Assembly (NCBI RefSeq): GCF_026625745.1
Contig: NZ_CP113061.1
Coordinates: forward strand, 2,133,501-2,197,500
Direction of reading: 5' to 3'
DNA: 64,000 bases
Source: Asticcacaulis sp. SL142
GTDB lineage: Bacteria; Pseudomonadota; Alphaproteobacteria; Caulobacterales; Caulobacteraceae
Under the pieces are notes generated by a model. The model saw only the letters and a program-made list of their open reading frames with translations, made no database searches and had not been told where the DNA came from. Shown one piece after another: positions 11,972 to 43,662 of the stretch (within the stretch, counting starts at the first letter, position 1; every line of letters starts with the position of its first letter). The translations under genes and the position numbers were made by a program.

Positions 11972-12778
11972 ATGACCGGATCAGTGTTAAAGCCCGTGCT
12001 CAAGCCGTTTCTGGCGGCCACCACCGCCGCCTTATCCCTGTTTGCGATACAACCAGCTACGGCTCAAGTCACCGGCGGCGCGTCCTTCGTCGATAACTTC
12101 GATAAGGTTGATAAGACCTTCTGGTACGTGTCCCACGGCTGGAGCAACGGTGCCCATCAAAACTGCGGCTGGTCGATGCATGAAACCTTTGCCTACAAAG
12201 GCAATCTGAACCTGCGCTTCCAGAAAAAACCCATGGCTGACCGTTTGTTTAGCTGCGGTGAAATCCAGACCAAGGCCACCTATGGCTATGGCACCTACGA
12301 AGCGCGCATGAAAACGCCCAAAGGTTCGGGCCTGAACGGTGCTTTCTTTACCTATATCGGGGCGACTCAGGGCAAACCGCACGATGAGATCGACTGGGAA
12401 GTCCTGCTGAAAGACACCAGCGTCGCCCAAAGCGGCGGTTATGTGAACGGCAAGGGCATGGGCGCTACCTTGCCTAAGCTGCCCTACAGTGCCGACAGCG
12501 ATTACATCAATTACGCCTTCGTCTGGGCACCCGACAGCATCAAATATTACATCAACGGCGTGCTGGTCCGCACGCTTGAAAGCCCCGCCCCCCTGCCGTC
12601 AAATGCCCAGAAAATCTTTTTCAGCCTGTGGGGCACCAATACCTTGACGGATTGGATGGGCACCTTCATTGAACCGGAAAAGCCTCTGTACATGCTGGTG
12701 GACTGGGTGGCCTATACCCGTCCCGGTGATGCCTGCCAGTTCCCGGAGTCGCTTGTCTGTAAACTCAACGGAGCCTAA
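11972..12778 (+). CDS. Secreted glycoside hydrolase family 16 (beta-glucanase type)
   Basis: The 268-residue protein has an N-terminal signal peptide ending near ATAQ (about residue 32). The catalytic GH16 signature ExDxE is present as HDEIDWEV with nucleophile E139 and acid/base E143. Substrate-binding aromatic patches include WYVSHGW and NYAFVWAPDSIKYYINGVLV. GH16 enzymes cleave beta-1,3, beta-1,4 or mixed beta-glucans and galactans; rhizobial ExoK and ExsH are exopolysaccharide-trimming relatives. Placed among polysaccharide genes, a role in setting chain length or releasing polymer is likely. A GT2 gene begins four bases after its stop. Confidence 0.92.
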   Translation: MTGSVLKPVLKPFLAATTAALSLFAIQPATAQVTGGASFVDNFDKVDKTFWYVSHGWSNGAHQNCGWSMHETFAYKGNLNLRFQKKPMADRLFSCGEIQTKATYGYGTYEARMKTPKGSGLNGAFFTYIGATQGKPHDEIDWEVLLKDTSVAQSGGYVNGKGMGATLPKLPYSADSDYINYAFVWAPDSIKYYINGVLVRTLESPAPLPSNAQKIFFSLWGTNTLTDWMGTFIEPEKPLYMLVDWVAYTRPGDACQFPESLVCKLNGA

Positions 12779-12782
12779 GTTT

Positions 12783-13748
12783 TTGCCCACCAGCGTCAGC
12801 GTGATTATTGCGGCCAAGGATTCGGCGGATACCATCGTCAGAGCCATCACGTCAGCCCTTAATCAACCTGAGGTTATACAGGTCATCGTCGTTGATGATG
12901 GCTCAAAAGATACGACCGCCCAGGTGGCGCGCGATGCCGATGATGGTAGCGGACGGGTTGAGGTCATGTCGCTTGGTAAAAACCATGGCCCCGCCTATGC
13001 CCGCAACCGGGCGCTTGAGGTCTGCCGCGGGCAGTTGGCCGCCATTCTCGATGCCGATGACTTTTTGTTGCCCGGTCGTTTTACCCGCCTGTTGCCGCAC
13101 GCCGACTGGGACATGATCGCTGATAATATCGCCTTTGTGCCAACGGGCTACGATGCGCCGCTTGAGATCAAGGGTACGGATGATGCCCACCCCCTAAGCC
13201 TTGAAGATTTTGTGCTGGGCAACCTGACGCGCGATGACATGCACCGCGGCGAACTGGGCTTTCTAAAACCCGTCATCCGTCTGGCCTTCCTCAAGGCCCA
13301 CAAGTTGTCCTATAATGAGGGCCTGCGGCTGGGCGAAGATTACGACCTCTATGCCCGTATGCTGGCGGCAGGCGGGCGGTTCAAAACCACACGGACCTTG
13401 GGTTATGGCGCGGTCGTGCGCCCCAATTCCTTAAGCGGTCAGCACCGCACCGAAGATCTGCGCCGGCTGGCCGATGCTGATCATGATCTGTTGGCCCTGC
13501 CCCTGTCGGCACCTGAGCGCCAAGCCATAGCCCTGCACGAAACCCAGACCCGTAACCGCTATCGCCATCGTCACTATCTTGATCTCAAACGCGATAAGGG
13601 GGCGGTGGCGACAGTAATGGCTCTGCTGGGCGATCCGGTCTCATGGCTGCCGGTCGTAAGCGGCGTGTTGCGCGACAAGTTATCGTCGCCGCCCGCGCCG
13701 CCCGCCAACAGCGATGTGCGTTATCTTTTCCCGCTGCCCGAAGCCTGA
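12783..13748 (+). CDS. Glycosyltransferase family 2
   Basis: The 321-residue protein shows the GT-A features SVSVIIAAKDSADTI, VIVVDDGSKDTT, GPAYARNRALE and the metal-binding AILDADDFL motif; a catalytic-type GEDYDLYARM follows. I place the start at the TTG at 12783, four bases after the GH16 stop, with ACGGAG about ten bases upstream; earlier starts lie inside the GH16 gene. Coupling to GH16 suggests co-regulation. The 3' end overlaps the convergent GT4 gene by 28 bases. Specificity is unknown. Confidence 0.82.
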   Translation: MPTSVSVIIAAKDSADTIVRAITSALNQPEVIQVIVVDDGSKDTTAQVARDADDGSGRVEVMSLGKNHGPAYARNRALEVCRGQLAAILDADDFLLPGRFTRLLPHADWDMIADNIAFVPTGYDAPLEIKGTDDAHPLSLEDFVLGNLTRDDMHRGELGFLKPVIRLAFLKAHKLSYNEGLRLGEDYDLYARMLAAGGRFKTTRTLGYGAVVRPNSLSGQHRTEDLRRLADADHDLLALPLSAPERQAIALHETQTRNRYRHRHYLDLKRDKGAVATVMALLGDPVSWLPVVSGVLRDKLSSPPAPPANSDVRYLFPLPEA

Positions 13749-14791: not shown

Positions 14792-14913
14792 GACGCTTAC
14801 GCCCCTAAACGGCTGGCTTTTATAAAGCCCTGTGAAATATGATTTAAGGAAAATTCAGATATTTATCGCATCCGCCATACCGCAACGCAAGACAAATGCA
14901 GTCCCCAAGTCTA

Positions 14914-15846: not shown

Positions 15847-15940
15847 GACCACCGCCATTCTGCGCCAACGCCTCGCAGAACATGGTTATCAGTCATTAAC
15901 CTTTTAGTAAATTGTAATAGTCAGGCGATCAATTGAGGGT

Positions 15941-23215: not shown

Positions 23216-23234
23216 GTAAAGAACCTTTGACCTA

Positions 23235-24773: not shown

Positions 24774-25404
24774 AAGCAGCTCCTTCAACAATAACTTCAC
24801 AGCCGTGCTCACGCGCAAGCTGAACACCCGCCAGCATGTCCCAGCTTTTGGCACCGGCCGGATTGACAAACCGCGCCAGCGATCCGCGCACGACATTAAA
24901 CAGGTTATAAACGGCACAGCCCATGATGCGGGCTTCGCCGCCGACGGGGATCATTTCGACCAGCCTGTCGTTTATCGAGGACGAGAAGCCCATGATCCGC
25001 GACGTCTGGTACTCAATTGTATCGCCGGTCATGAGCTTTAAGCCCATTTCCGGCACCATCAGCATCGAAGCGGCATGTTCGCGCTTATGCCAGATCGACA
25101 GAGACACGCCCCATTCAGGCAAGCCGGAACAGAAATTCTCCGTGCCATCGATCGGATCAAGTACCGCCGTCCAGTCCTTATCGTCCGCCGCCCCTACTGC
25201 GTAACTTTCTTCGCCGACGAAATTGATATCGCCCATCAGGCCGGTCAGATGATCCTTAATGGCATTTTCCAGAAAGACATCGGCGACCGTTACGGGGCTG
25301 CCGTCCTCTTTCCAGGTCACATCGCGACGGTTGGCCAGAACATAGGGCAGGTGTTGCTGTACGACCCCGGCCACACTGCCGAGGATTTTTATCGCGTCGG
25401 TCAT
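24697..25404 (-). CDS. Inositol monophosphatase-family phosphatase
   Basis: The 235-residue protein has the metal-binding signatures of the FIG superfamily: GEES at residues 64-67, DPIDGTENF at 83-91 and WDMLAG at 188-193. Family members include IMPase, CysQ/BPNT1 and fructose-1,6-bisphosphatases; specificity cannot be read. The position upstream of the NeuB-fusion suggests dephosphorylation of a nonulosonate phosphate, the step a NeuC/NeuB pathway of the KDN-9-phosphate or Neu5Ac-9-phosphate kind would need. I chose the ATG at 25404. Its last 25 codons overlap the beginning of the NeuB-fusion in another frame. It is the first gene of the operon. Confidence 0.85.
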   Translation of the reverse strand: MTDAIKILGSVAGVVQQHLPYVLANRRDVTWKEDGSPVTVADVFLENAIKDHLTGLMGDINFVGEESYAVGAADDKDWTAVLDPIDGTENFCSGLPEWGVSLSIWHKREHAASMLMVPEMGLKLMTGDTIEYQTSRIMGFSSSINDRLVEMIPVGGEARIMGCAVYNLFNVVRGSLARFVNPAGAKSWDMLAGVQLAREHGCEVIVEGAAYDGRYLEPDRKHRFDIRHRHDLHPR

Positions 25405-26495: not shown

Positions 26496-27518
26496 CTAAG
26501 CCGCTTTAAATTTCAGCTCAAACCACTTTTTCCAGAACCCGACCGACCAGGCAACGTGCATGGTCATGGCGGCATAGCCGGACATGACTCCCTCAACCGA
26601 GCGCGTCCGCACCCCCTCGATCACCGACAACCCGCCCCACAGGCACAGCCATCCGATCAGCGGCAGGGCGCACACCCACCAGATCGCGGCCAGCGGCGCC
26701 ATCACGATCGACGGCAGCACCATGGCCGGAATGATCTGACGCAGGCCCGGCGTCTGTTTATGCTTGAGGATATTCTGAATACGGCCACTGCCATAGCCGC
26801 GGTACTGTTTAAACAGGCCCTTAGCGGTGGTGCGCGGCAGATATTCCATAACGGTTTTCGGTGTCATCCAGATGTAGTAGCCGATCTTGCGCAACCGGAA
26901 ATCCAGTTCCGCGTCTTCGTTGTGGGCAAAGCTTTCGTCATAACCGCCCACTTCGCGGAACGCCTTAATACGCATCAGGGCATGGTGGCCGTGATCGACA
27001 AATTCGCCCTTATTGACCACGCGGTGTTTTGAGCCGCCATTGCCGAGCGGGGAATTTTGGGCGATGGCTACGGCCTTCTGGAATGCGCCTGCGCCGATAG
27101 TGTTCATCGACACCACGATCGACGCACAGCCGACCTTGCGGGCCTCGTCCATCAGTTGCTCGCAAAAATCCTCCGGATAGGTGCCGTGAGCATCGATGCG
27201 GATCAGATATTCGGCATCATTCCCATAGCGCTCGACCGCCAGATTGATACCCGCGCTCTGGATTTTCTTCGGATTGTGCAGCAACCGTACCGGCGCGCCA
27301 TCATCGACATAGCGGCGCACAATATCCTGCGTGCCATCGCTCGATCCTCCATCGGCAACCACGATCAGAGACCCGGCCTCGCCTTCGGTACGCAGCAGCC
27401 AGTCCAGCAGCTTACCGATGTGGGCGGCCTCATTCAGGCACGGCACTACCACCAATACCTTTTCGGTACGCACAGGGTCTGCCGTCGGTAAATTCATAGC
27501 CAGTCCCGCGTCACGCAT
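26496..27518 (-). CDS. Glycosyltransferase family 2, ExoA-like (succinoglycan-type)
   Basis: The protein has up to 340 residues. It shows VLVVVPCLNEAAHIGKLLDWL, VVADGGSSDGTQDIV, the RIDAHGTYP acidic motif, GNGGSKHRV, FVDHGHHALMR and AHNEDAELDFRLR, followed by three C-terminal membrane segments (about residues 250-300, VLPSIVMAPLAAIWWVCAL-LIGWLCLWGG). This matches ExoA-type membrane glycosyltransferases and the paralogue at 49387-50427. Two starts are possible: the ATG at 27518 (AGGTGG upstream, overlapping the previous stop by 8 bases) and the ATG at 27497. I favour 27518 because of the ribosome site and overlap. Confidence 0.87.
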   Translation of the reverse strand: MRDAGLAMNLPTADPVRTEKVLVVVPCLNEAAHIGKLLDWLLRTEGEAGSLIVVADGGSSDGTQDIVRRYVDDGAPVRLLHNPKKIQSAGINLAVERYGNDAEYLIRIDAHGTYPEDFCEQLMDEARKVGCASIVVSMNTIGAGAFQKAVAIAQNSPLGNGGSKHRVVNKGEFVDHGHHALMRIKAFREVGGYDESFAHNEDAELDFRLRKIGYYIWMTPKTVMEYLPRTTAKGLFKQYRGYGSGRIQNILKHKQTPGLRQIIPAMVLPSIVMAPLAAIWWVCALPLIGWLCLWGGLSVIEGVRTRSVEGVMSGYAAMTMHVAWSVGFWKKWFELKFKAA

Positions 27519-28647
27519 GCGCCACCTGCAATGTTTTCAGGCGGTCGACAAAACCCACACAATCGTCACGGGTGGCGGTAAACAGAGACGGCGGACAGGC
27601 CTTAAGGGTCGCCCGCAAGGCCGACAGGCAATCCGGGGTGAGCGTCTCAAACAGCGCCATCAAGGCCTGCGGTGTAGCCTCATCCAGGGTCAGGCCGAGG
27701 CCGTGACGGCTGACAAAACTTCCGGTTTCCGTGCCACTCATGGCAATCGGCACCGAACCATAGCGGCTGCCTTCATAAAGCCGGTTGGGCAGCAGCCATT
27801 TTGAGTTCTGGCCTTCTTCAAAGAAATCAATCGCCCAGGTCAGATCGACCGCGGCATAAAGCGCGCTCAAATCTTCGGCACTGTACGGGCCCTCAAATGT
27901 GATATGGGGCTCAGCCGCGACCTGTGCGTCGAAGTCCTCAAACTCATTATAGGCGGGCTTGCCGCGCATAACGACCTTGACCCTGCCCGCCATGAGGCGT
28001 GTTAACGCGGACAGCAGGTCCAGTGATTTCCGGCAGCGCAGGGCCCCGAACCAGCCGATGGTGATAACCCCGTCTGTCTTTTTAGCCGCCGGAACGCCCA
28101 CAACGCGGCCGCTCAAGTCCAGCACCTTATTCTCCAGCAGGAAAACCGGCAGGGTCAGGTTCTGCATGGGCACGAAATAGTTCTCAACAAAGGCCGGGGA
28201 ACTGGTGACGACCAGCGATGCCCGCGACATCAGACTGCGTTCAGCCCCACGCAATAGGGCGCCGATAAAATCGCGGCGCAGCAGCAGGCGATGGATATCG
28301 AGGCTTTCGTAAACAATGACGGGGGCGGGCTTGAACCGGCGGGCGACCTGACGGGCCAGAAACAGCATCTCCAGATTACGGGCGATGATAATGTCGGGCT
28401 TACTATCCCCCAGCGCCCGGATCAGCGACGGCGCGGTGGTCAGGGTTTTGGCGGCGCGATGGGCAAAGGCACCGTTACGGGTTTCGCCCAGATCGATGAT
28501 CTTATCCGTAGACTCTGAGACCGGTTTTGGTCCTCGCCGAAAGCCCGCCAGATAGACGCTCGCCCCACCCGCCTCAAGCATAAGGGTTCGGCGACGTACC
28601 GCCGCATCTTCCAGATCATGCACAAGATAGAGTACCCGCATGGTCAC
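27511..28647 (-). CDS. Glycosyltransferase family 4-like
   Basis: The 378-residue protein reads MTMRVLYLVHDLEDAAVRRR, then IIIARNLEMLFLARQ, ITIGWFGALRCRKSLDLL and WLLPNRLYEGSRYGSVPIAM, consistent with a GT-B fold. The usual E-x7-E donor signature is replaced by N-R-L-YEG, as in some ExoL-type succinoglycan enzymes; this resemblance is from memory. Its end overlaps the ExoA-like gene by 8 bases. The donor sugar is unknown. The next gene upstream on the strand is the ABC transporter of the lasso cluster, about 117 bases away, so it may be read through from there. Confidence 0.75.
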   Translation of the reverse strand: MTMRVLYLVHDLEDAAVRRRTLMLEAGGASVYLAGFRRGPKPVSESTDKIIDLGETRNGAFAHRAAKTLTTAPSLIRALGDSKPDIIIARNLEMLFLARQVARRFKPAPVIVYESLDIHRLLLRRDFIGALLRGAERSLMSRASLVVTSSPAFVENYFVPMQNLTLPVFLLENKVLDLSGRVVGVPAAKKTDGVITIGWFGALRCRKSLDLLSALTRLMAGRVKVVMRGKPAYNEFEDFDAQVAAEPHITFEGPYSAEDLSALYAAVDLTWAIDFFEEGQNSKWLLPNRLYEGSRYGSVPIAMSGTETGSFVSRHGLGLTLDEATPQALMALFETLTPDCLSALRATLKACPPSLFTATRDDCVGFVDRLKTLQVAHA

Positions 28648-28764: not shown

Positions 28765-30561
28765 TTAGTCATGAGCCTCACCATGATCTAATACGCGCCC
28801 GCCCTCAACCGTGATCACCTTATCGGCGCATTCAACCACGACCGGATTATGAGTGATCAAAAGCACGGTCATCTGACCGCGTAAGCCATCAATGGTCGAC
28901 AAAATGCCTTGGGTATTTTCGCGGTCGAGCGCGCTGGTCGATTCATCAAGGATAAGCAGCGCCGGCTGACGCAGCAGAGCGCGCGCCAGCGCCACCCGCT
29001 GACGCTCTCCGCCCGACAGTTTGATACCGCCGTCGCCGACCGGTGTCTCCAGCCCCTGCGGCAGGCGCTCAATAAAAGCCGCCGCCTGTGCTTGCCGCAG
29101 CGCGTGCCACATATCCTCCACCGTGGCATGGGGCGCTGCGATTTTCAGGTTTTCCGCTACGGTTGCCGACAGCAGATAGGTTTCCTGCGGGACGTAAGCA
29201 ATGTGAGTGCGCCATGACGGCCCATGCGCGGCCTCTAAAGCCACCCCATCAATCAGGATGCGCCCGCTATCAGGCATCAACAGGCCCATGACCAGATCGG
29301 CCATGGTGCTCTTGCCGCCGCCGGAGGGGCCAACAATGGCCGTTATCTGGCGGGCGGGCAGGCTGAAGCTAACGGCATCGACCGCCAGATGATCACCGTA
29401 TGAAAAACTCACCGCCTCGAAATCAAGGCTGTGCTTTAGCCCCGACGGGGACAGCGTCGTCGCGGCCTGCGGGATTTCCACGGCGGCGTCACAGTCAGCC
29501 TTGACGCGCTGCATGGTCTCAAACGCCGGTAAATTGATAATGGCGTTCTGCAGATGATCCTGCGTGCCGGTAAAGCGCGGCGACAGGCGCATGAAGATCA
29601 CCAGCAGCACGATGATGCGCGAAAACGGCATGGCGTAGACGGCATAGGCGACATAGATAAACACGCACACCATGACCGCGCTTAAGATCTGAAACAGCGT
29701 CGTCCCGAGCGAATTGATGCGGGTATAACGCATCAGATCGCCGCGCATCCGCTCTAACGTGCCGTTCAGTTCGGCGATGTAGCGCGGTTCGGCGTTGAAG
29801 CTTTTGGTGACCTTAAGGCCCGCCAGAAAATCGCTGATGGTGCGGTACTGGCGCTGGCGCTCGGTCGTCAGCTTATCGCCAAAGATAGCGCCCTGCTTAC
29901 GGATCGGGCGCAAGGCCACAAACACCAGGGCCCCGGCCACCGCCGCAATCGCCGTCATCTGCCACGAGATCATCAGCGACAGCAGCATGTAGGCGCATAA
30001 AAACACCGCGTTCTGGATCAGCAGAAACAGACTGGCCGTCGCCGTCTGCACCCGGTCGATATCGCCGGTTAGGACGTGATCGAGGTCCGCCGTACGTTTG
30101 CGCGCCACCGCCGACCATCTGGCCTTTGATATGCTGGCAAACAGGTCGATGCGCAGGCGGTTGACCGTATCGACCAGCAGCGCCGACATGTAGATATTCT
30201 TGAACCGCGCAAACAGTGCCCCGACGGTCACCACCGCGACAAAGACAGCCAGAATCAGCCACAGCTCAATCTGAAACGACGCCCCCAGCACCGGTGCCAA
30301 TGGCCCGGTCGGCAGGTCGAGGACTGTGCCGCCACCCTGCGCGCTGATGAACTGCAACAGCGGCAACAGCAGCAGCAGCGATACCCCTTCGCTGAAGCTG
30401 CCCAAAATCAGGAAGACAACGGATAAGATTGAGCGTTTGCGCGATACCGACAGAACGTAAGCCGCCAAGGACCGGCAGCGCTGCCAGGTCTTAAGGCCAC
30501 TTTGCATTCCGGTTTTTTGGCCGGTTTTTGGGGGCGAATCGCGGGTATCAGCCAAGGTCAT
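28765..30561 (-). CDS. ABC transporter (fused membrane and ATPase domains), lasso peptide exporter candidate
   Basis: The 598-residue protein has six N-terminal membrane helices (about residues 45-325) and a C-terminal ATPase. The Walker A motif GPSGGGKST spans 411-419, the LSGGE signature 515-519, and LLILDE (Walker B) 535-540, with the H-loop histidine in ITHN. It is of the MsbA/McjD type that exports peptides or lipids as a homodimer. Its start overlaps the kinase gene by 14 bases, and the set forms the D function of a lasso-peptide operon, so export of the mature peptide and self-immunity is the likely role. No C39 peptidase domain is present, consistent with leader removal by the separate B2 protease. 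Confidence 0.87.
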   Translation of the reverse strand: MTLADTRDSPPKTGQKTGMQSGLKTWQRCRSLAAYVLSVSRKRSILSVVFLILGSFSEGVSLLLLLPLLQFISAQGGGTVLDLPTGPLAPVLGASFQIELWLILAVFVAVVTVGALFARFKNIYMSALLVDTVNRLRIDLFASISKARWSAVARKRTADLDHVLTGDIDRVQTATASLFLLIQNAVFLCAYMLLSLMISWQMTAIAAVAGALVFVALRPIRKQGAIFGDKLTTERQRQYRTISDFLAGLKVTKSFNAEPRYIAELNGTLERMRGDLMRYTRINSLGTTLFQILSAVMVCVFIYVAYAVYAMPFSRIIVLLVIFMRLSPRFTGTQDHLQNAIINLPAFETMQRVKADCDAAVEIPQAATTLSPSGLKHSLDFEAVSFSYGDHLAVDAVSFSLPARQITAIVGPSGGGKSTMADLVMGLLMPDSGRILIDGVALEAAHGPSWRTHIAYVPQETYLLSATVAENLKIAAPHATVEDMWHALRQAQAAAFIERLPQGLETPVGDGGIKLSGGERQRVALARALLRQPALLILDESTSALDRENTQGILSTIDGLRGQMTVLLITHNPVVVECADKVITVEGGRVLDHGEAHD

Positions 30562-31453
30562 GCTCTATAATAGCCACAGCTTCGCCTAAGCGCTCCAGCG
30601 AATCCGGCACAACCAACCGCCGGACCACACCTAATTCGGCCAGATAGGCGCATTGCTGCATAAATCCCGGCGCACTGCCCGCCGACAAAGCCTCTTTGCC
30701 AAAACGGATCAGATAGGAAAAGCGCATCAGGGCGCGAAACGCCTCAAGCGGGCTTAAGTCGATGATCTGCGCCTGCGGCCCGCGTTCCAGCACATATAGA
30801 CGCCCCGGCACGGCATAGTCATTGGAAAAATGCGCACTGACGCTGTGCTGGCGTTTATCAAAGCCCGGCACGTCGATCATTTCCAGCCGGCGGGCGTGTT
30901 CAATCGCCACGGACGCCGCCGATTCATCGGTCAGCTTCATCTGCGGAAAGCCCGGCAGGATGCGCACATCCGGCTTAAAATCAAAAGCCAGCACATCATC
31001 GGTCAGCAGCGGATAACCCTTACCGACCAAAGCCCCGGCGGTGGTTGATTTTCCAGCGCGTTTGTCACCCAGAAAGCCCGCGCCCTTGCCATTAATCAGC
31101 ACCGCGCTGGCGTGGAGCACCATCAGGCTGCGCACATGCAACAGCATGGCCATAACCGGCCCCAGCAGCGGCAGGCGCACGATCTTTTCCGGCACATCAG
31201 CGCGCGCATCGACCACAATTTCAGATGATCCACGGATCTCAAACTTACCGACCGCGGCCCAGTCCAGCATCTGAAGGTCGCGGCTAAACTCAAAGAAGGT
31301 CCCAGGTGCCCCCACCGGCAGGTCACGCCCGATCGGCGCGCACCGGATCACCAGATCGGCTACGTCATTATCTGACGGCAAAAGCTCCGGCAGTTCGATC
31401 TCGGAATGGATCGTCAGCCCATAGGCTGTGTGACGAAAGAGAGGCTTGGTCAT
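30548..31453 (-). CDS. Lasso peptide kinase (HPr kinase-like)
   Basis: The 301-residue protein resembles the C-terminal HPr kinase fold. It contains LHASAVLINGKGAGFLGDKRAGKSTTAGAL with Walker A GDKRAGKST (129-137), and TDDVLAFDFK (152 onward). Such kinases in lasso clusters, for example the paeninodin cluster, phosphorylate the C-terminal serine of the precursor. That precursor here ends in Ser48. Its end overlaps the ABC transporter start by 14 bases. I chose the ATG at 31453 over the one nine codons upstream because it is nearer to a typical start, but ribosome signals are weak for both. A gap of 87 bases separates it from the cyclase. Confidence 0.83.
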   Translation of the reverse strand: MTKPLFRHTAYGLTIHSEIELPELLPSDNDVADLVIRCAPIGRDLPVGAPGTFFEFSRDLQMLDWAAVGKFEIRGSSEIVVDARADVPEKIVRLPLLGPVMAMLLHVRSLMVLHASAVLINGKGAGFLGDKRAGKSTTAGALVGKGYPLLTDDVLAFDFKPDVRILPGFPQMKLTDESAASVAIEHARRLEMIDVPGFDKRQHSVSAHFSNDYAVPGRLYVLERGPQAQIIDLSPLEAFRALMRFSYLIRFGKEALSAGSAPGFMQQCAYLAELGVVRRLVVPDSLERLGEAVAIIEHDLG

Positions 31454-31540
31454 CAAAGGTTTTCCAGTGAGCGTACGCATTAAATTTTACAAAAACGCCA
31501 CTCCTGCCGGGCTCAGACCACGGCACCACCAAATTGTGTA

Positions 31541-33412
31541 TCAATTTGAATGGGTTTTACCCTGGCTGTGCCGCAGCCAGAGCGATAAGGCGACGGTTCG
31601 CCATACCGCTTGCAAATCATAGGCCGAAACCTTCGCCCCCTTTTGCCGCAACCGATTGAGCGATGTTTTCACCCGTTCAAGGTCAACGAAGGTCGCAACA
31701 TTATCACGGTTATGCTCAATCACGTCACGCATCAGGTCTTGGTGATGCGCCAACAGACCCGAGGCGATATGGGGCGCGAAATCGAACTTGCTGCGCCGCC
31801 ATTGGACTTTGGGGGGCAAAACGCCCTCCATCGCCTGACGCAGGATCAGGCGGACATGGCCCTGATCGAGCTTGGCTTCTGACGGTAGAGACAAACAAAA
31901 CTCGACCACCCGCTTATCAAAGAACGGAAAGCGCGCTTCAAGGCCGGCCCCGGCGGCAGCGGCCTCAAGCACCTCAAGGCTGGACGCCAGCCCCGGCGAT
32001 TGCAGAAAGGCCGTATGCTGGGACGCTTCGTCCTGATGCTGAGGGCGGTGGTCCGCCGCTGCGCGCGCGCGAAACTCTGGCGTCAATAAAACGTCGCGAT
32101 CAGCCTTGGGCCAGCGCTTTTGAAACCACGCGGCCATACGCCGCAAGCTATGGGAACCCTTGAAACGGGCATAACGAATGAACAACAGGATAAACAGCCC
32201 CAGCCGCCCCTGCCCATACAGGCCGGAAAAGGCACGGGTCTGCGCCCACAGATCCCGCCAGCGGCCTTGCTGCGCCAGTTCATGAAACCGGCCGTAGCCG
32301 TGCGATAATACCTCATCGCCGCCGTGGCCTTCAAAGACGACGCGAAAGCCCTCAGCCCCGACCCGCTGGAACAGAGAACTGGTCATCCGCAGACCCGGCG
32401 CGCCGAACAGCCGCCCCTCAAGCGCCAGAAGCGCCTCGAAATCACCAAACGGTGCGTAACCATCCATGGCCACATGGCGCGGACGGAAATGGGCGTGGGC
32501 GATACCGGCATCTATATAGTCGCGCTCGCTCAATTCCGGCGTCTTGTCGAACACTACGGAAAAACTGTCGATGGGATCACCGGGTTGCAACTGGCTGGCC
32601 AGACAGGCGATCGAGGTTGAATCCAGCCCGCCACTGAGCAGAGCCGCCACCGGCTGAGTGGAACGCAGGCGGCAACGCACCGCCTCGGTCAGCAAGGCGC
32701 GCAAGGCCTGCGGGCTTTTGTCGGTTATCGTCGCATCTGGGGCGGCCTGCCAGTAACAGGTCAAGGTCGGCACATGATCTGGGCCCGCCGTCAGTATGTG
32801 TCCCGGCGGCACCCGCCACAGGCCGTCATAAACCACCCGGTGATCGCGCGGCAGTTGCCCGGTCATGAAATCGGCCACATCGGCCTCAATCAGTCCGACC
32901 TGCGCCAGATCACTGAACGGCGCACCCGGTGCGGCCAGCACCTTGGGTTCACTGGCCAAGGCCAGTCCGGCCCCGTCGGCGCGATAGAATAGCGGCTTAA
33001 CGCCCATATGGTCGCGGGCGGCAAAAATGCGCCCCGTGTCGGCATCATATATAATGAACGCAAAATCACCAATGAAATGATCTACGCAGTCATCGCCCCA
33101 CCGCCGCCATGCCGCCAATATCAGCGCCCCTTCGGACAGGCTTTCGTTCGTGATATCGAGGGCGGCCAGCAATTGGGGGCGGTTATCCAGCCGTGCATCG
33201 ACCACGGCGCGCACAGTACGGCCTTCAAAAATGGTCGGCTGAGCCGGGTCTTCGGGCAGGGTGCGCATCAGCCCCATACCCAGGGCAGAGCGCCCCTCCG
33301 CCCAGACCTCGGTTCCATCCGGCGCACGATAGGGCATGGCCCGCAACATGGTTAATACCAGATCACGCGCTGAGGCCTCAAACGTCAGGAAAACACCGGC
33401 AATTGCGCTCAA
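31541..33412 (-). CDS. Lasso cyclase (asparagine synthetase-like, C protein)
   Basis: The 623-residue protein has an N-terminal class II amidotransferase-like domain and a C-terminal ATP-pyrophosphatase domain. Its start MSAIAGVF replaces the nucleophile Cys2 of asparagine synthetase (MCGIAG) with Ser, so ammonia cannot be made from glutamine, as expected for a lasso cyclase. The adenylation loop SGGLDST is at residues 260-266; FEGHGGDEVLSHGY gives the second conserved motif. It adenylates the Asp/Glu side chain and closes the macrolactam ring. The start is TTG, overlapping the TGA of B2 (TTGA at 33409-33412). Confidence 0.9.
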   Translation of the reverse strand: MSAIAGVFLTFEASARDLVLTMLRAMPYRAPDGTEVWAEGRSALGMGLMRTLPEDPAQPTIFEGRTVRAVVDARLDNRPQLLAALDITNESLSEGALILAAWRRWGDDCVDHFIGDFAFIIYDADTGRIFAARDHMGVKPLFYRADGAGLALASEPKVLAAPGAPFSDLAQVGLIEADVADFMTGQLPRDHRVVYDGLWRVPPGHILTAGPDHVPTLTCYWQAAPDATITDKSPQALRALLTEAVRCRLRSTQPVAALLSGGLDSTSIACLASQLQPGDPIDSFSVVFDKTPELSERDYIDAGIAHAHFRPRHVAMDGYAPFGDFEALLALEGRLFGAPGLRMTSSLFQRVGAEGFRVVFEGHGGDEVLSHGYGRFHELAQQGRWRDLWAQTRAFSGLYGQGRLGLFILLFIRYARFKGSHSLRRMAAWFQKRWPKADRDVLLTPEFRARAAADHRPQHQDEASQHTAFLQSPGLASSLEVLEAAAAGAGLEARFPFFDKRVVEFCLSLPSEAKLDQGHVRLILRQAMEGVLPPKVQWRRSKFDFAPHIASGLLAHHQDLMRDVIEHNRDNVATFVDLERVKTSLNRLRQKGAKVSAYDLQAVWRTVALSLWLRHSQGKTHSN

Positions 33413-33828
33413 GGGATCCGTGCACCCATCCGGGTCAGCAGCTTATAGCGCTCAAGCTCACCCGATTCATTGCCAACCACGACCTGATCGCCGCTCATGA
33501 CCCAGGCGTGGGCCAACAGCCCCTTGTCGCCCGGTTTATCGCTCTGGGCGACACCGAGACATAACGATGACCCGAAACCATGCCGTTTCAGGATATATTG
33601 TGCGGTCATGGCCCGTGACAGGCAGGTCGCGCCGGGAATGGGTTTGGCGGTTTTAAACACAAACCATCCGACCCGGCGGGCTTCCCACGGCGGGGCCGGA
33701 GGCCCCTCAATTTCACGGATGTGCTGCTTTATTCGCTTGTATCCAAAGGCAAGGATATAGGCGCGGAAATAGAGGTTCAGCGCGAAATATTTGGTTCCCG
33801 ACAGGATATTTTTCCAAGCCGTCTGCAT
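33409..33828 (-). CDS. Lasso peptide leader protease (transglutaminase-like, B2 protein)
   Basis: The 139-residue protein shows the transglutaminase-like catalytic triad of lasso B proteins: Cys69 in GATCLSRAM, His107 in LLAHAWV, and an acidic partner such as Asp114 in MSGDQV. It removes the leader from the precursor, working with the RRE protein B1. It lacks an RRE domain, which fits the split B1/B2 architecture. Its stop overlaps the cyclase TTG start, giving coupled translation. A gap of about 39 bases separates it from B1. Confidence 0.9.
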   Translation of the reverse strand: MQTAWKNILSGTKYFALNLYFRAYILAFGYKRIKQHIREIEGPPAPPWEARRVGWFVFKTAKPIPGATCLSRAMTAQYILKRHGFGSSLCLGVAQSDKPGDKGLLAHAWVMSGDQVVVGNESGELERYKLLTRMGARIP

Positions 33829-33867
33829 GGCTTTATGTATCCAAGTTTGGGCCGACGGTCAGACGCT

Positions 33868-34152
33868 TTACGCGCTGACGGCAATCAGGCCCTGTTCTGA
33901 CAATTGCGTCAGCAAAGTCTGCAAATCCTGTTCCAGAACGTCGGCACTGACATCATAGGCCTGCGTCATCGCGCCCAAAATATCGCCAATCGTCTTGGCC
34001 GAGCCTTCGATCTGCGACCAGACATAGGCGCCGGTCTGATTGAGGTTAAAATAGCTGCCGGTGCGTAAATCCAGCAGAGCCAGCCCACCGGCCAGTTCCG
34101 TGCCGACCACATCGCCCGACGCCGTAATGATTGAAGAATTCACCAGCGCCAC
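33868..34152 (-). CDS. PqqD-family RiPP recognition element (lasso B1)
   Basis: The 94-residue protein has the PqqD fold: GDVVGTELAGGLALLDLRTGSYFNLNQTGAYVWSQIEG, then TIGDILGAMTQAYDVSADVLEQDL and a terminal helix. The LLDLxTGxYFxLNxTGxxVW pattern is diagnostic. It binds the leader peptide and delivers it to the B2 protease and cyclase. It lies between the terminator that follows the precursor gene and the B2 gene. Confidence 0.92.
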   Translation of the reverse strand: MALVNSSIITASGDVVGTELAGGLALLDLRTGSYFNLNQTGAYVWSQIEGSAKTIGDILGAMTQAYDVSADVLEQDLQTLLTQLSEQGLIAVSA

Positions 34153-34197
34153 GCAACCACTCCGGATTAAAAATTTTGAAACTAAGATAATATATGT

Positions 34198-34236
34198 AAA
34201 AAATGCCCGGCGACATAAAACCCGCCGGGCATTTTA
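34198..34236 (-). terminator. Terminator/attenuator between lasso precursor and B1 genes
   Basis: Arms 34204-34212 and 34223-34231 form a perfect 9-bp GC-rich stem, extended by A/T pairs, with a 10-nt loop. On the minus strand it ends in a U-run. It lies just after the precursor stop and before B1, so most transcripts should end after the precursor, giving more precursor than enzymes. Confidence 0.8.
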
Positions 34237-34261
34237 GAACTCTTTACTCACAGGCCCGGCC

Positions 34262-34408
34262 TTAAGAGAAGGTCAGATCCGCAAACGGGGTGCCAACCGG
34301 GAAGGAGGCATCCAGCGTACCACCGGTACCCGTGTTCTGGGTGGTGGTTTCAAAGTCGCCGACCTTAGCAACGGTCGGGGCTTCGTAAACAGCCTTAACT
34401 TGCGTCAT
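34262..34408 (-). CDS. Lasso peptide precursor (A peptide)
   Basis: The 48-residue precursor begins MTQVKAVYEAPTVAKVGDF. Its leader fits the YxxPxLxxxGxFxxxT pattern (Y8, P11, V13, G17, F19, T23) bound by PqqD-type B1 proteins. T23 would be the conserved penultimate leader residue, so cleavage after Q24 gives a 24-residue core starting at N25 with a 9-residue ring closed at D33. An alternative is a core from G27 with a 7-residue ring to D33. The tail PVGTPFADLTFS ends in Ser48, a possible phosphorylation site for the kinase. CGGAG lies about nine bases before the ATG at 34408. A longer upstream start is rejected. Confidence 0.88.
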   Translation of the reverse strand: MTQVKAVYEAPTVAKVGDFETTTQNTGTGGTLDASFPVGTPFADLTFS

Positions 34409-34572
34409 TTCAATAATCTCCGATATGGGGCGTACCCCTTTGGATAACGAAAAAAATCTCTCATATTCAGTGCTTAAAGTCAAGCCTAAGGATTTCTCAA
34501 CATAAATGATGTATAGTGCTGCCAACTACTTTACATCCGTTTTTATCATTTCTTTTTATTGAGGACCGGCGC
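34409..34572. promoter_or_regulatory. Divergent promoter region, lasso precursor and nucleotidyltransferase
   Basis: This 164-bp AT-rich region must hold promoters for both directions. On the minus strand TTGACT (complement of 34478-34483) could be a -35 box, but no good -10 lies at the right spacing. On the plus strand TATAGT at 34512-34517 resembles a -10 box. A small gggg/cccc hairpin (34427-34438) lies in the precursor's 5' leader near its ribosome site. Confidence 0.35.
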
Positions 34573-35610
34573 ATGAGCCTTCTGTGTCTGAATCTGGCCC
34601 AACTGCTTGATCCCGGACACGCGCCCAAATCCCCAATTGACGCGCCTAAAAATACTGAAAAATCAATTGATTATGCCCGCAAAAACAAGCTTGGTGTGCT
34701 TTTTGCACGCACCCTCCCCCCCTACGAGCATGATGCACCGCACTATAAAGACTTCATAAGTGAAACCAAGAAGGTCGCATTAACCAATTCCCGCATCCTT
34801 CACCTGGTTCACAAAACTCACCTGACGCTAGAATCTGCGGGCATTAACCACGTATTTTATAAGGGTCCGCTGCAACAAAAAATTCTCTACGGCGACTTTT
34901 TTTCGAAAAAAAGTGTCGATGCCGACCTGCTCGTGGCCAGAAAAGACTTCTCCCGCGCCCGCGAAGTGCTTGTCGCCGCTGGATTTTCAGTTCCGGCAGA
35001 ATGTCACCGTCTATGGTGGCGTCTGTTTCTGGGTGAGCAACACCTGTTCACTGATTCGTCCGGCCCCCATTCGGTCGATCTGCACCACCGTCTGCAGCAG
35101 CCCGGATCGCCCGCACCCCGCCGAGTTGACAGATTTATGAGCAATCCTGTTAAGGTTAATTTGGGCTCAAACAGTATTCCAACCCCAAACACAAAGTATA
35201 TCGCGCTTATCTCGGCGATGAATCTTGTGAAAGCTATTTACAACCGTCAACCGGGTGGTAGCTATGCTATGGATCTGCTGACAGCCCTGCGCCAGATGTC
35301 GCCCGCAGAAATCAACGCCCTGCAACAGGAGGCCCGCCTTCAGGGGCTTTTCAATACTACACAATTTGCGGCACGTCTTTCGGCGCTTGTCTTTGGGGTC
35401 AGCGATCTGTTCTCGGACGAAGCCCTGACTTTACCGATCTCTGATGATAAACTCGAGCAGCTACTCTTGGCACCCGATGAAATGCTGGCGGACATGCCGC
35501 GCCGCCGGACGATGCTGCGCACCTTAAGCGATCACCCCGTCACGGATTTCCCCCTTGAGAGTGCGCGCTGGCTGATCTCGGAAACCGCCCGAATCACCCC
35601 CTGGCTGTAG
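34573..35610 (+). CDS. Nucleotidyltransferase family protein of lasso cluster
   Basis: The 345-residue protein matches the NTP_transf_5-type (PF14907) nucleotidyltransferases that recur in lasso clusters with kinases. It shows the YKGPLQQKILYGDFFSKKSVDADLLV pattern in pieces: K97-G98, the YGD turn, and the acidic pair D116-x-D118. GAGG lies about eight bases before the ATG at 34573; an upstream in-frame start is not needed. It is divergent from the precursor, and its base composition and codon use look more AT-rich than neighbouring genes. It may modify the phosphorylated peptide; the substrate is not known. Confidence 0.75.
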   Translation: MSLLCLNLAQLLDPGHAPKSPIDAPKNTEKSIDYARKNKLGVLFARTLPPYEHDAPHYKDFISETKKVALTNSRILHLVHKTHLTLESAGINHVFYKGPLQQKILYGDFFSKKSVDADLLVARKDFSRAREVLVAAGFSVPAECHRLWWRLFLGEQHLFTDSSGPHSVDLHHRLQQPGSPAPRRVDRFMSNPVKVNLGSNSIPTPNTKYIALISAMNLVKAIYNRQPGGSYAMDLLTALRQMSPAEINALQQEARLQGLFNTTQFAARLSALVFGVSDLFSDEALTLPISDDKLEQLLLAPDEMLADMPRRRTMLRTLSDHPVTDFPLESARWLISETARITPWL

Positions 35611-35673: not shown

Positions 35674-35777
35674 CTGGTCATAAATAATACCTGAAATAGA
35701 CTGGCTACGGCCGCGTGCGGGCACCGGTCAGCCTTTTATATCTGACGCGCTCATATTTCAGCGGAAAAGCATTTTAC

Positions 35778-37958
35778 ATGAAGCCTGAAACCTTCGACAT
35801 CGCGGCGGATCGCGAAGATATTCTGCAAATCCGCCTTGATCTGCGCTCCATCGGCTTTGATTATCGCCGTTATATATGGATATTTTTAGCGCTGTTTGTG
35901 GGCGTATTTGCGCTCACCTATCTCTATCTGAGCAGCCGCCCCAAGCTATATACCGCCACCGCGATCGTAGCCCTCGATGCCCGCAATGTGGCCCTGACCC
36001 CCGAAAATGAGGCTCTGGTGCAACTGCCTCAGGATGACACGCCGGAATCGCTTCAGGTCAATACGGAACTGGTGCTGCTGCAACAGGTGTCTTTGGCCGA
36101 GCGCGTTGTTGAGTCGCTAAAACTGGATCAGCATCCGGCCTTTGCGCCGCAACCGGTTGATCCCAAAACGGCAAACAAGACTGACACCAGCGCGCAATCC
36201 TCGCAACCCGCCCAAACGCCAGAGGAAAAGGCAGCCCAAAGACGGCGCGCCATTGCCGGGGCGCTATTGTATGGTCTGAAGATCAAACGCCAGGAAACCA
36301 CTCGCATCGTCTATCTGAACTATTCATCGCCGTCGCCCGAACTGGCCGCCGATGTCGCCAATGAATGGAGCCTGCAATATATCGCCCAGAAGATCGATCA
36401 GAATCAGGCCGAACTGCAAAGTGCCGGCAGCGGTATGGCCGAACGGCTGGATAAACTGCGCGGCGAAGTGCTGGCCCGCGAAGAAGCTCTGGCTAATTAT
36501 AAGGTCGCCAATAACCTGATGACGGTGGGCACAGCCACCCTGACTGAAAGCGAAATCTCAGCCCTGAACCGGCAGGTCGCCAGTAACAAACTCGATCTGG
36601 CCGAGCAGGAGGCAAAACTCGCCACCGCCCGCCAGCAATTGCAAAATACCGGCGTCAGCGCCGAAATGGCAGGCCCCGTTGGCTCACGCGTCCTGACGAC
36701 CTTGCGCTTAAAACGCGCCCAGATCACGCGCCAGATTGCCGACCTGCAAACGACCTATGGCCCGCGCCACCCGCAGGTCATCGCCGCTCAGGATCAGCTT
36801 TCCGATATCGATCAGCAAATTCGTACCGAAGGCGACCGGCTTTTGTCCAGTCTCGAAGCCGAGGTTGATATTGACCGCCGCCGCCTCAGCCAGACCCAGT
36901 CCAGTCTGGGGGCCGCCACCGGCCAACTGGTCTACGCCAATAGCGCCAGCGCCGGTCTCAGCCAGCTTGAAAATGATGCGGCTGTGGCTCAGGAAATCTT
37001 TGAGCACTATCTTGACCTTTATAAACAATCCCTTACGGCCAATCCGGCGCAGAACATTCATGCCCGCCTGATCTCTCTGGCCCGTATCCCCGCGGCACCC
37101 AGCTCCCCCAATCTGATATTGGCCTTTGTCATTGCGCTGGGCCTCGGCACGGTGGCCGGTGTTGGCGGCGTGTTCACTCGTCAGATTTTTGAAACCGGCA
37201 TCATCGCCCCCGGCGATATCGGCTATAAGCTGGGGCTGCCGCATCTGGCGACGCTCGTTAAGGTCAAATCCCCGTCCAAAAATGCGCCCCCCTCCTTGCC
37301 CGCCCCCCTGTCCCTGCCCGATTATGTCATTCAGAATCCGGGTTCCGCCTTTGCCGAGGGGCTTCGAGGTTTGCGCACCTCCCTGCTCTATACGGCCAAT
37401 GATCATGGCGGGATTATCGCCATCACTTCGCCCCTGCCGTCGGAGGGCAAATCGACCACTTCGGTCTGTCTGGCCAGAGTCATGGCCATGTCCGGTCAGT
37501 CAGTGATTGTGGTTGAATGCGATCTGCGCCGCCCGGGCTTGAGCCGCGCTTTGGGGCGTCGGGCCGAAAACGGCCTGATCGAAGTGCTGCAAGGCGATGC
37601 CAATCTGGAAGATGTGATCCTTAATGACGATATCGGCGTTGATTATCTGCTGGCGCCGCGCAAGGATCGCGATGTCACCGGCGTATTCGAAGCCCCGATC
37701 ATGGATCGCTTCATTACCTATCTGCGCCACAAGTACGATATTGTTATTCTCGATACGCCGCCGGTTCTGGCCATTGCCGAAACCCAGATTCTCACAAAAT
37801 TTGCCGATCAGACCATTATGCTGGTGCGCTGGGCCAAGACCCCGATGCGGGCCGTCAAAGCCGCCCTGTCCAGTTTGAGACAAACCGGCGGCCCGGTGAT
37901 CGGCATCGTCCTCACCCAGATGGATGAGCGGCTGTTCAAGAAAAGCTCAATGTACTGA
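35778..37958 (+). CDS. Wzc/ExoP-like polysaccharide co-polymerase, tyrosine autokinase type
   Basis: The 726-residue protein combines an N-terminal Wzz-type domain and a C-terminal P-loop kinase. A first membrane helix (YIWIFLALFVGVFALTYLYL) lies near residue 35, a periplasmic coiled-coil region follows, and a second membrane helix (LILAFVIALGLGTVAGVGG) precedes the kinase. The Walker A motif is in LPSEGKSTTS, Walker A' in VVECDLRRPG, and Walker B in YDIVILDTPPVL. Unlike the other two copies in the window it ends with one tyrosine (KSSMY) instead of a Tyr cluster. The ATG at 35778 is preferred. A terminator follows. Confidence 0.88.
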   Translation: MKPETFDIAADREDILQIRLDLRSIGFDYRRYIWIFLALFVGVFALTYLYLSSRPKLYTATAIVALDARNVALTPENEALVQLPQDDTPESLQVNTELVLLQQVSLAERVVESLKLDQHPAFAPQPVDPKTANKTDTSAQSSQPAQTPEEKAAQRRRAIAGALLYGLKIKRQETTRIVYLNYSSPSPELAADVANEWSLQYIAQKIDQNQAELQSAGSGMAERLDKLRGEVLAREEALANYKVANNLMTVGTATLTESEISALNRQVASNKLDLAEQEAKLATARQQLQNTGVSAEMAGPVGSRVLTTLRLKRAQITRQIADLQTTYGPRHPQVIAAQDQLSDIDQQIRTEGDRLLSSLEAEVDIDRRRLSQTQSSLGAATGQLVYANSASAGLSQLENDAAVAQEIFEHYLDLYKQSLTANPAQNIHARLISLARIPAAPSSPNLILAFVIALGLGTVAGVGGVFTRQIFETGIIAPGDIGYKLGLPHLATLVKVKSPSKNAPPSLPAPLSLPDYVIQNPGSAFAEGLRGLRTSLLYTANDHGGIIAITSPLPSEGKSTTSVCLARVMAMSGQSVIVVECDLRRPGLSRALGRRAENGLIEVLQGDANLEDVILNDDIGVDYLLAPRKDRDVTGVFEAPIMDRFITYLRHKYDIVILDTPPVLAIAETQILTKFADQTIMLVRWAKTPMRAVKAALSSLRQTGGPVIGIVLTQMDERLFKKSSMY

Positions 37959-42544: not shown

Positions 42545-42936
42545 GTTTCGGCTCTCGTCCCATCGTCTCATAGTTAATTGTGCGGCGCAATATCGATTTT
42601 GACACGCATCTGAACTAATGGTAGTGAAATAATTGCAAAAAGCTGTTAAGTCCAAACAAAACAAATTAGCGGCATCAAAACGATGCACAGGGCTTCATTT
42701 TTAACACATAAGATGCCCTTTTGATTGAAAAGATTAATCAACCATCAGGGGAATCCCATTGCGAGCGAAGCTGTTAACCAACAGTTTTTCGCAAGTTTTT
42801 ATATTCTGGTCGCCATCAGTTGCGCAAAGAGCGCAAGCTGAAATTTTTTATGGCATACATTGTGCAATGCGGGACAAATCATTGACAGTTTGCCCGTCAA
42901 TTTAAATACTGACTGTGCAGTTTTGGAGAGGTGATC
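42545..42936. promoter_or_regulatory. Divergent region upstream of the Wza-like and priming transferase genes
   Basis: The 392-bp gap separates the minus-strand export gene from the plus-strand priming transferase. TTGACA at 42882-42887 followed 17 bases later by AATACT (42905-42910) is a fair sigma-70-type promoter for the transferase, about 27 bases ahead of its start codon. An attgac/gtcaat inverted repeat (42881-42886 and 42896-42901) and a ctgtt/aacag dyad around 42758 could bind a regulator. No gene is evident. Confidence 0.4.
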
Positions 42937-43662
42937 ATGTTGATCAATACGCCGTCTGCGGCAAGTATGGAAAACAGCGTCTCCGTCGGATTTAAGGTAC
43001 GCACCCCACAGGCGCGCGAGAAGGCCGGAAAGCGGGCCAGACTGCGTCGCCTGAATCATGGTGTTATTCGTTGCCTTGATCTGATGATTAGTTTGAGCGC
43101 GTTGATATTTCTGGCGCCGGCGATTGTGGTGATCGCCCTGCTGATTCGCTTTCAGGATGGCGGGCCTGCCCTTTATCGTCAAAAGCGTATCGGCCTGAAC
43201 GGCCGTGAGTTTAGTTGCTTCAAATTACGCAGTATGCATGTGCGCTCTGATGAGATTTTACGTGAAATCCTGCTGAACGATCCGGTAGCCCGCGCCGAGT
43301 GGGACGCTGAACAAAAGCTCAAGAATGACCCGCGCATTACCGTTTTGGGACGCATCTTACGTAAAACCAGCGTCGACGAACTGCCTCAGTTGCTCAATGT
43401 CATTCGCGGTGAAATGAGCCTTGTCGGGCCACGCCCGATTGTTAACTCCGAAGTGGTCAAATATGGCCGCTCCTTCAAAAACTACGTGTCCGTGCTGCCT
43501 GGCATTACCGGCCTGTGGCAGGTTATGGGACGTAACGATGTCAGCTACAGCCGCCGCGTAGCCATGGATCGCCTGTTTGCCCGCAAGCATTCGTGTGGCA
43601 TATATATCATGATCCTGGTAAAAACGTTACCGGCGGTACTGTTACAAAAGGGCTCATATTAG
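42937..43662 (+). CDS. Polyprenyl-phosphate sugar-1-phosphate transferase (ExoY/WcaJ type)
   Basis: This 241-residue membrane enzyme starts the repeat unit by moving a sugar-1-phosphate from a UDP-sugar to undecaprenyl phosphate. Visible features are an N-terminal hydrophobic helix (LMISLSALIFLAPAIVVIALLI), then the catalytic motifs PALYRQKRIGLNG-F-CFKLRSM, the KLKNDPRITVLGRILRKTSVDELPQL stretch, and the family signature SLVGPRP. It lacks the CoA-binding-like domain of WcaJ, fitting the short ExoY type. GGAGAGG precedes the ATG at 42937; a GTG two codons upstream is less likely. It is the only priming transferase in the window. Confidence 0.93.
   Translation: MLINTPSAASMENSVSVGFKVRTPQAREKAGKRARLRRLNHGVIRCLDLMISLSALIFLAPAIVVIALLIRFQDGGPALYRQKRIGLNGREFSCFKLRSMHVRSDEILREILLNDPVARAEWDAEQKLKNDPRITVLGRILRKTSVDELPQLLNVIRGEMSLVGPRPIVNSEVVKYGRSFKNYVSVLPGITGLWQVMGRNDVSYSRRVAMDRLFARKHSCGIYIMILVKTLPAVLLQKGSY

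Follow-up and report, generated by a model that had tools for sequence, protein, structure and literature searches.

A lasso-peptide cassette with kinase and nucleotidyltransferase genes inside surface-polysaccharide loci of Asticcacaulis sp. SL142 and other Alphaproteobacteria

The seven-gene cassette

This study concerns a lasso-peptide gene cassette at positions 28765-35610 of a 64,000-nucleotide stretch of the Asticcacaulis sp. SL142 genome (contig NZ_CP113061.1, positions 2,133,501 to 2,197,500 of the forward strand; this whole stretch is called the window here). Six of its seven genes lie on the minus strand in the order A-B1-B2-C-K-D, and the seventh, N, is divergent on the plus strand (Table 1). 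The gene set and its limits, the motifs, the positions of leader, ring, Thr and Ser, their conservation and the genomic setting were all read from sequence. An earlier note on this DNA had described a complete lasso cluster with kinase and nucleotidyltransferase, and the description held, as each gene lies where the note had placed it, profile searches agree with the names given, and the kinase motif is in register with that of the lasso-peptide kinase BsfK.

The precursor A matched the lasso leader family NF033521 lasso_leader_L3 (E 3.7e-6, 26.7 bits, cut-off 19). The earlier note had named the lack of an RRE or lasso-cyclase score for B1 or C as a result that would speak against a lasso cluster, B1 being the discrete RRE (the recognition element for ribosomally synthesized and post-translationally modified peptides). 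B1 matched PqqD PF05402 (E 3.2e-20), along with NF033536 lasso_PqqD_Bac at 49.8 bits (cut-off 80), and the top NCBIfam match of C was the lasso cyclase NF033535 (E 1.2e-153, 513 bits, cut-off 525), followed by the asparagine synthase TIGR01536 at 237 bits. B2 matched NF033537 lasso_biosyn_B2 (60.5 bits, cut-off 33), N matched PF14907 NTP_transf_5 (E 1.6e-23), and K gave a weak match to Hpr_kinase_C (E 8.4e-4, under the Pfam cut-off). Since C falls 12 bits short of its cut-off and K below the Pfam one, these two calls rest also on context and motifs. With a YxxP leader, Thr at -2, Asp9 inside the ring range of 7-9, an RRE, B2 and C, the locus has the features of a lasso cluster. The possibility that C is an ordinary asparagine synthetase or the XrtA amidotransferase of an exopolysaccharide locus was ruled out by the far higher lasso-cyclase score and the presence of A, B1 and B2 alongside.

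Across 10 loci, one Cys and one His of B2 are invariant and the SGGLDS motif of C is nearly whole. The earlier note had singled out the lack of Cys2 in C. Cys2 is indeed lacking, but this is ordinary, because none of the 10 cyclases compared (5 of them near-identical) has it. The inverted repeat between A and B1 may be a terminator- or attenuator-like element that raises A over B1-D; it was absent from the list of a repeat scan with a loop limit of 8. For N (open reading frame 34516-35610, plus strand) the divergent orientation was noted correctly, but its start is most likely ATG 34573 rather than GTG 34516, because in the close relative G026 the 5' extension contains a stop.

Table 1. Features of the cassette and of the surrounding polysaccharide locus (window coordinates)
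Feature	Position	Strand	Remarks
A, lasso precursor, 48 residues	34262..34408	-	leader 1-24; core NTGTGGTLDASFPVGTPFADLTFS, 24 residues; predicted isopeptide ring N1-D9; C-terminal Ser
Perfect 13-bp inverted repeat between A and B1	34200..34235	-	T-rich sequence next on minus strand
B1, discrete RRE (PqqD-like)	33868..34152	-	profile match
B2, leader peptidase, transglutaminase-like	33409..33828	-	profile match
C, lasso (macrolactam) cyclase	31541..33412	-	SGGLDS ATP motif, no Cys2
K, HPr-kinase-like precursor-peptide kinase	30548..31480	-	His, P-loop and Asp-Asp motif
D, ATP-binding cassette (ABC) exporter, permease-ATPase fusion	28765..30561	-	profile match
N, NTP_transf_5 nucleotidyltransferase-like tailoring enzyme	34573..35610	+	DxD D116/D118 counted from ATG 34573
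GT1, GT4-like glycosyltransferase downstream of D	27511..28647	-	profile match
GT2, glycosyltransferase family 2	26496..27518	-	8-bp overlap with GT1
Wzc-like chain-length/tyrosine autokinase of the host polysaccharide locus, adjoining N	35715..37958	+	profile match
ExoK-type glycanase of glycoside hydrolase family 16 (GH16) and adjacent GT2-family gene	11972..13748	+	NF052392 above cut-off
Initiating sugar-phosphate transferase (Bac_transf, WbaP/ExoY-like) of the host locus	42931..43662	+	profile match

Precursor, kinase and nucleotidyltransferase

The precursor consists of the leader MTQVKAVYEAPTVAKVGDFETTTQ and the core NTGTGGTLDASFPVGTPFADLTFS, with Thr at -2, a predicted N1-D9 ring, a C-terminal Ser and a predicted monoisotopic lasso mass of 2354.107 for the core. 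The leader had been read as YxxPxLxxxGxFxxxT; the profile match bears out a lasso leader, but the motif reads YEAPTV, with V rather than L at its sixth position. A study of a Bradymonas cluster from 2023 places YxxPxL at -17 to -12 (PMC10368454), and the core start of each precursor was set by this published rule of Y=-17. Under the rule both Thr(-2) and Asp9 are found in 47 of 47 distinct precursors, which argues that the core assignment is not due to chance. The leader-motif Tyr is present in all precursors, core residue 1 is Gly in 39 of the 47, the C-terminal residue is Ser in 46, and five have a core of other than the usual length. Within 32 distinct 24-residue cores D9, F12, T16, P17, T22 and S24 are invariant, and L21 and F23 vary hardly at all. 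Identity among nine representatives (the Asticcacaulis group contributing three) is 32% in the ring (1-8) and 62% in the tail (10-24), and the ratio of nonsynonymous to synonymous substitution rates (dN/dS) over 66 Mesorhizobium-type loci is 0.02 for the leader, 0.31 for the ring and 0.13 for the tail. Nearly fixed and with a low dN/dS, the tail seems a likelier target than the ring for recognition by some conserved partner machinery. Searches by tblastn gave no precursor in L080, L225 or L228, and the one in L080 was then spotted by eye. The precursor of locus L217 (Porphyrobacter) has an altered and longer tail in a 30-residue core (...DLTCGPEDGMS) and still keeps the C-terminal Ser.

The residues H123, G138, G143, K144, S145, D161 and D162 of K match H148, G163, G168, K169, S170, D186 and D187 of BsfK with the same spacing, and none of the seven varies in alignments of 8 and of 11 sequences that include the one from the window. 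An Arg stands in place of G166 of BsfK, a residue for which a change from Gly to Ala was reported to be almost harmless (PMC10368454). Phosphorylation of the C-terminal Ser by lasso kinases, and its polyphosphorylation by SyanK, are described in reviews (PMC9266682, PMC8498205). Both the kinase motif and Ser48 of the precursor agree with the C-terminal-Ser phosphorylated lasso peptides of PadeK, ThcoK, SyanK and PsmK, and by analogy with these K most likely (poly)phosphorylates the C-terminal Ser of A.

An alignment of 15 sequences, including that from the window, showed that N conserves Lys97-Gly98, Asp116-x-Asp118, Asp169-x-His171 and a Gln-Gln-x-Gly-x-Pro-x-Pro stretch. The structure model of N (mean predicted local distance difference test score 89.1, predicted template-modelling score 0.90) predicts a nucleotidyltransferase fold. 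Its top fold matches were the nucleotidyltransferases MenT1, ANT(2'') and LnuA and, more weakly, FKRP, which was crystallised with CDP-ribitol; the template-modelling scores to the whole query were low (0.25-0.43). A glycosyltransferase fold was rejected, as there was none among the best 50 of 173 fold matches. This makes nucleotidyl or sugar-phosphate transfer a better fit than classical glycosyl transfer, and we infer that N most likely couples a sugar or nucleotidyl group to the Ser-phosphate. A sequence search of the PDB with N returned one chance match, and a plasmid search with N returned 4 records, none of them from Bacillus.

Taken from published relatives, the order of events would be phosphorylation, leader removal and ring closure. 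The RRE of B1 would bind the YxxP leader, K would phosphorylate the C-terminal Ser on the linear precursor, possibly several times, B2 would cleave after Thr-Gln (with Thr at -2), and C would close the N1-D9 ring around the tail. N may then take the Ser-phosphate as acceptor and add a sugar(-phosphate) or nucleotidyl group, and D would export the product to the surface, the site of polysaccharide making.

Distribution and polysaccharide setting

Within the family of Asticcacaulis (Caulobacteraceae), a kinase match was found in 29 of 390 genomes, with a strong one (E below 1e-40) in 10, and N was matched in 20 of the 390, strongly in 10; in all 10 genomes with strong N, K lies close by. A contig scan with the kinase alignment gave 105 loci, of which the best 80 were kept; 64 of these are titled Mesorhizobium, so that pooled counts over the 80 are dominated by this one genus. 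The rest are from Asticcacaulis, Caulobacter, Brevundimonas, Porphyrobacter, Erythrobacter, Sphingomonas and Pseudaestuariivita, along with some records of less exact title. The complete set of seven cassette genes is present in 76 of the 80, and the other four loci (L185, L212, L225 and L228) are at or near a contig end. More distant kinases of the family (L081-L101) occur in other gene orders, such as K-B1-C-..-B2 or an arrangement with several kinases in one locus, and could represent further peptide systems; they were excluded from the precursor, tail and polysaccharide counts.

Over much of its length the window is a polysaccharide locus, with glycosyltransferases, Wzx- and Wzy-type genes, three Wzc-like and two Wza-like proteins, a BBP2_2 porin, an initiating sugar transferase, NeuB, a cytidylyltransferase, a polysialyltransferase-like gene, ExoK and ExoD. 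ExoK and the initiating transferase (Bac_transf) occur both in the window, about 30 kb apart, and in the locus of Mesorhizobium amorphae, with ExoK above its equivalog cut-off in both, and judged from genes rather than from polysaccharide chemistry the window holds an ExoK-containing (succinoglycan-type) exo locus. Homologues of the ExoK of the window and of its adjacent GT2-family gene adjoin the cassette in Mesorhizobium. The NeuB-like, cytidylyltransferase and alpha-2,8-polysialyltransferase-like genes at 20687-24917 point to a sialic-acid-like sugar in the polysaccharide of the window.

With 26 proteins from the window's own locus as queries, a polysaccharide match was found in 81 of 82 lasso loci and in none of 40 control regions of 20 kb each, which were hand-spaced, not random, in eight cassette-bearing genomes (G695, G038, G022, G170, G177, G395, G023 and G026). 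The single negative lasso locus is a 4.5-kb contig (L212). Each of 15 non-Mesorhizobium loci had at least two polysaccharide matches, a set that excludes L212 (zero matches) and the untitled L157 and L164 (Mesorhizobium-type precursor). The placement of the cluster inside a polysaccharide locus in the earlier note is thus real, and this setting recurs across several orders. That near-relatives of the cassette lie inside surface-sugar clusters of many alphaproteobacteria, with Mesorhizobium foremost among them, suggests that the peptide works with the polysaccharide and is not a stray antibiotic.

Kinase matches were also found in 12 plasmid records, five of which were examined. A 41.8-kb plasmid of Paracoccus carries N, GT2, GH16, an O-antigen ligase, a sugar transferase, B1 to D and further glycosyltransferases (GTs), with an open reading frame of 45 residues at the position of A; a Sulfitobacter plasmid has similar gene content. 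The records from Thalassobaculum and Priestia have galE and one GT within reach, and galU and a polysaccharide gene, respectively. In the haloarchaeal plasmid of Halopiger xanaduensis (L232), glycosyltransferases and a flippase stand beside the cluster. At 10743-18483 this plasmid encodes a PqqD-like B1, a lasso B2, an asparagine-synthase-like cyclase candidate, an NTP-transferase and an ABC exporter; its kinase frame of 299 residues is uninterrupted, and a small frame at 12920-13081 on the minus strand has a YxxP leader and a core that does not fit the pattern of D9 and C-terminal Ser.

Since lasso peptides are often antibiotics, the cluster might make a diffusible antimicrobial or signalling peptide for which the polysaccharide locus is a mere landing place for gene exchange, that is, a variable island. 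The patchy presence of strong K in the family and the plasmid-borne clusters of Paracoccus and Sulfitobacter fit this explanation. It does not account well for a setting of the same kind in several orders when none of the control regions had a polysaccharide match, nor for a tail that is nearly fixed across genera, whereas toxin cores generally change fast. The window also has neither isopeptidase nor TonB receptor, though D could give immunity. Together with the co-inheritance described below, these points make the explanation an unlikely one.

Of 61 genomes sampled from the genus Mesorhizobium, 47 carry a close kinase (at least 66% identity), beside an ExoK-type locus, and two others show only a weak match. 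Among the 14 genomes without a strong kinase, the neighbouring GT is kept in 10 (6 at 82-86% and 4 at 58-61% identity) and missing in 4. The 6 closer empty-site genomes keep the order, with UGD-ExoK (GH16)-GT on one side and SugT-Wza-Wzy on the other; the 4 more distant ones have the same flanks except that UGD is outside the stretch and Wzy is inverted. None of N, A, B1, B2, C, K and D was found in any of the 10 empty-site stretches (elsewhere in these genomes only K was sought), whereas all seven were found in two cassette-bearing control stretches. Because N is absent together with the other six, it belongs to the cassette. Scraps matching the 3' end of D remain in 5 of the 6 closer empty-site genomes (the weakest, in L276, at E 1.7e-4), from which it follows that the cassette was probably lost in this group. 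A match between the empty site of L284 and the cassette falls in a B1-B2 spacer, resembles a dispersed repeat and was not counted as a remnant. The cassette is an optional part of the polysaccharide system, and retention of the polysaccharide genes does not depend on the peptide.

On a tree of GT and SugT with 76 rows, at least 3 changes in cassette presence are required, compared with 9.6 in shuffles; the tree excludes L157 by choice and L185, which has no GTa. The distances of K, C, N and D track the GTa and SugT distances of the host locus (r 0.93-0.945). One of the 66 cassette-plus rows in both the tree and the distance comparison is a duplicate, L285 being the same contig as L159. These signs of long co-inheritance with an exo-type locus speak against a mere landing place.

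The same loci bear on another explanation, that the peptide regulates polysaccharide assembly, for example by binding Wzc, a porin-like export protein or an ExoY-type transferase, with phosphate and sugar groups merely tuning export or stability. The Mesorhizobium cassette sits between ExoK-GT and a conserved small open reading frame followed by SugT, and an element of roughly 60 bases that precedes N in loci with the cassette precedes GT in all 6 closer empty sites. Such an arrangement would suit a regulator, but the locus persists in 10 genomes that lack the cassette, which leaves this explanation quite unlikely. The shared element may mean that N heads the transcription unit of GT. The small frame, of about 100 residues, lies between GT and SugT in L275-L284, and in eight Mesorhizobium loci with the cassette that were compared it stands between D and SugT; it looks like a membrane protein and may resemble exoX-type repressors.

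Relation to known systems and likely role of the peptide

The astexins and other Caulobacterales lasso peptides come from the same bacterial group as the peptide of the window and have lasso chemistry in common with it. In astexin-type clusters an isopeptidase and a TonB receptor adjoin the lasso genes. The window carries a kinase and N instead; in line with the earlier note, neither a TonB receptor nor an isopeptidase was found among its complete open reading frames of sufficient length, apart from genes otherwise identified.

The earlier note had also held that kinase-bearing lasso clusters are best described from Firmicutes, which overstates the case, since SyanK of Sphingobium yanoikuyae (PMC9266682, PMC8498205) and BsfK of Bradymonas (PMC10368454) are known experimentally from Proteobacteria. 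Clusters with both kinase and nucleotidyltransferase are likewise already known, namely those of pseudomycoidin (PMC9266682, PMC8498205) and bsf (PMC10368454). In review accounts of pseudomycoidin (psm, Bacillus pseudomycoides), PsmK (poly)phosphorylates the C-terminal Ser and hexoses are added to the phospho-Ser via PsmN (PMC9266682, PMC8498205). The psm and window clusters both have an HPr-kinase-like K and a nucleotidyltransferase N, but psm belongs to Bacillota, and in the Firmicutes clusters N is encoded between B2 and D or as a fusion with B2, whereas N of the window is divergent; the comparison is one of cluster descriptions. SyanA/SyanK is also alphaproteobacterial, with a kinase that polyphosphorylates the C-terminal Ser; judged by description, it may or may not share the tail family. 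The bsf cluster of Bradymonas sediminis shares the set A, B1, B2, C, D, K and N, YxxPxL at -17 to -12 and the kinase motif. It differs in Ile(-2), phosphorylated Ser3, C-terminal Asp and a G1-D8 ring and in having no polysaccharide genes at its borders; with Thr(-2), Gly3 and C-terminal Ser the window falls outside the Bsf subfamily.

The link of phosphorylated lasso clusters to capsule loci is itself already reported, in a 2026 description of atypical paeninodin-like clusters inside capsular polysaccharide loci of Bacilli (PMC13381572). These share with the window a kinase, N, an MsbA-like exporter, an RRE and a capsular or polysaccharide locus, but have Trp-type leaders in the paeninodins and an extremely patchy occurrence (PMC13381572), whereas the present family has Tyr leaders and one conserved tail family and is found in most Mesorhizobium sampled. 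The Tyr in the leader motif and the NF033536 score below cut-off place the window outside the paeninodin family in the sense of that paper. No report of the alphaproteobacterial cassette was found in the open-licence PMC literature searched, and as far as these searches reach an alphaproteobacterial lasso family with a conserved core tail and a setting among polysaccharide genes is new.

In the genus of the window GT1 is confined to 7 of 25 genomes, namely those that have K and strong N; in the family it occurs in all 10 genomes with strong K and N and in 24 of the 380 others. N, GT1 and GT2 stand in series with 4-bp overlaps in L080 and L216. GT1 and GT2 were rejected as obligatory cassette members, because GT1 is found outside the K and N set and because in Mesorhizobium a neighbouring GT remains where the cassette is absent; no close homologue of either was found in the 66 Mesorhizobium-type loci, with a weak GT2 match in two. 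Deletion of lppN in a foreign host is reported to have had no effect, and a partner outside the core cluster was supposed (PMC13381572). GT1 and GT2 are candidates for such a partner. The lasso peptide might even be a covalent part of the surface polysaccharide, with a Ser (poly)phosphate built by K, a phosphodiester or pyrophosphate bond to a sugar made by N, and neighbouring glycosyltransferases that attach or elongate it; the exopolysaccharide would then carry a knotted peptide as its cap or anchor. This is a speculative and rather improbable extension; if true, the neighbouring glycosyltransferases would be the kind of partner supposed for LppN (PMC13381572).

Taken together, the seven genes probably form a complete cassette that looks functional, and its product would be a lasso peptide that is phosphorylated, tailored further and accessory to a surface-polysaccharide system. 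The strongest point for a tight partnership is the recurrence of one kind of setting in several orders together with the nearly fixed tail. Several observations weigh against it. The strongest is that the exo-type locus persists where the cassette is absent. The cassette and its host locus are linked, and the match in distances fits vertical descent and joint transfer alike. It should also be noted that K scores below the Pfam cut-off and C slightly under that of NCBIfam, that Asn is unusual as the ring-forming residue 1 (2 of 47 distinct precursors, that of the window and that of a close relative), that the precursor of L102, the sole exception to a C-terminal Ser, ends in Ser-Asn, and that the search for precursors relied, with one exception, on similarity to that of the window, which biases the set toward look-alikes.

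Mesorhizobium is a genus of legume symbionts, and its exopolysaccharide is important for the symbiosis. The roles of paeninodin-type phosphorylated lasso peptides are described as unknown (PMC13381572), and the family reported here ties phosphorylated lasso peptides to an ExoK-type polysaccharide locus in tractable bacteria. Because Mesorhizobium genomes with and without the cassette share the flanking genes, the effect of the peptide on the polysaccharide and the group attached by N can be addressed through natural pairs and simple deletions.

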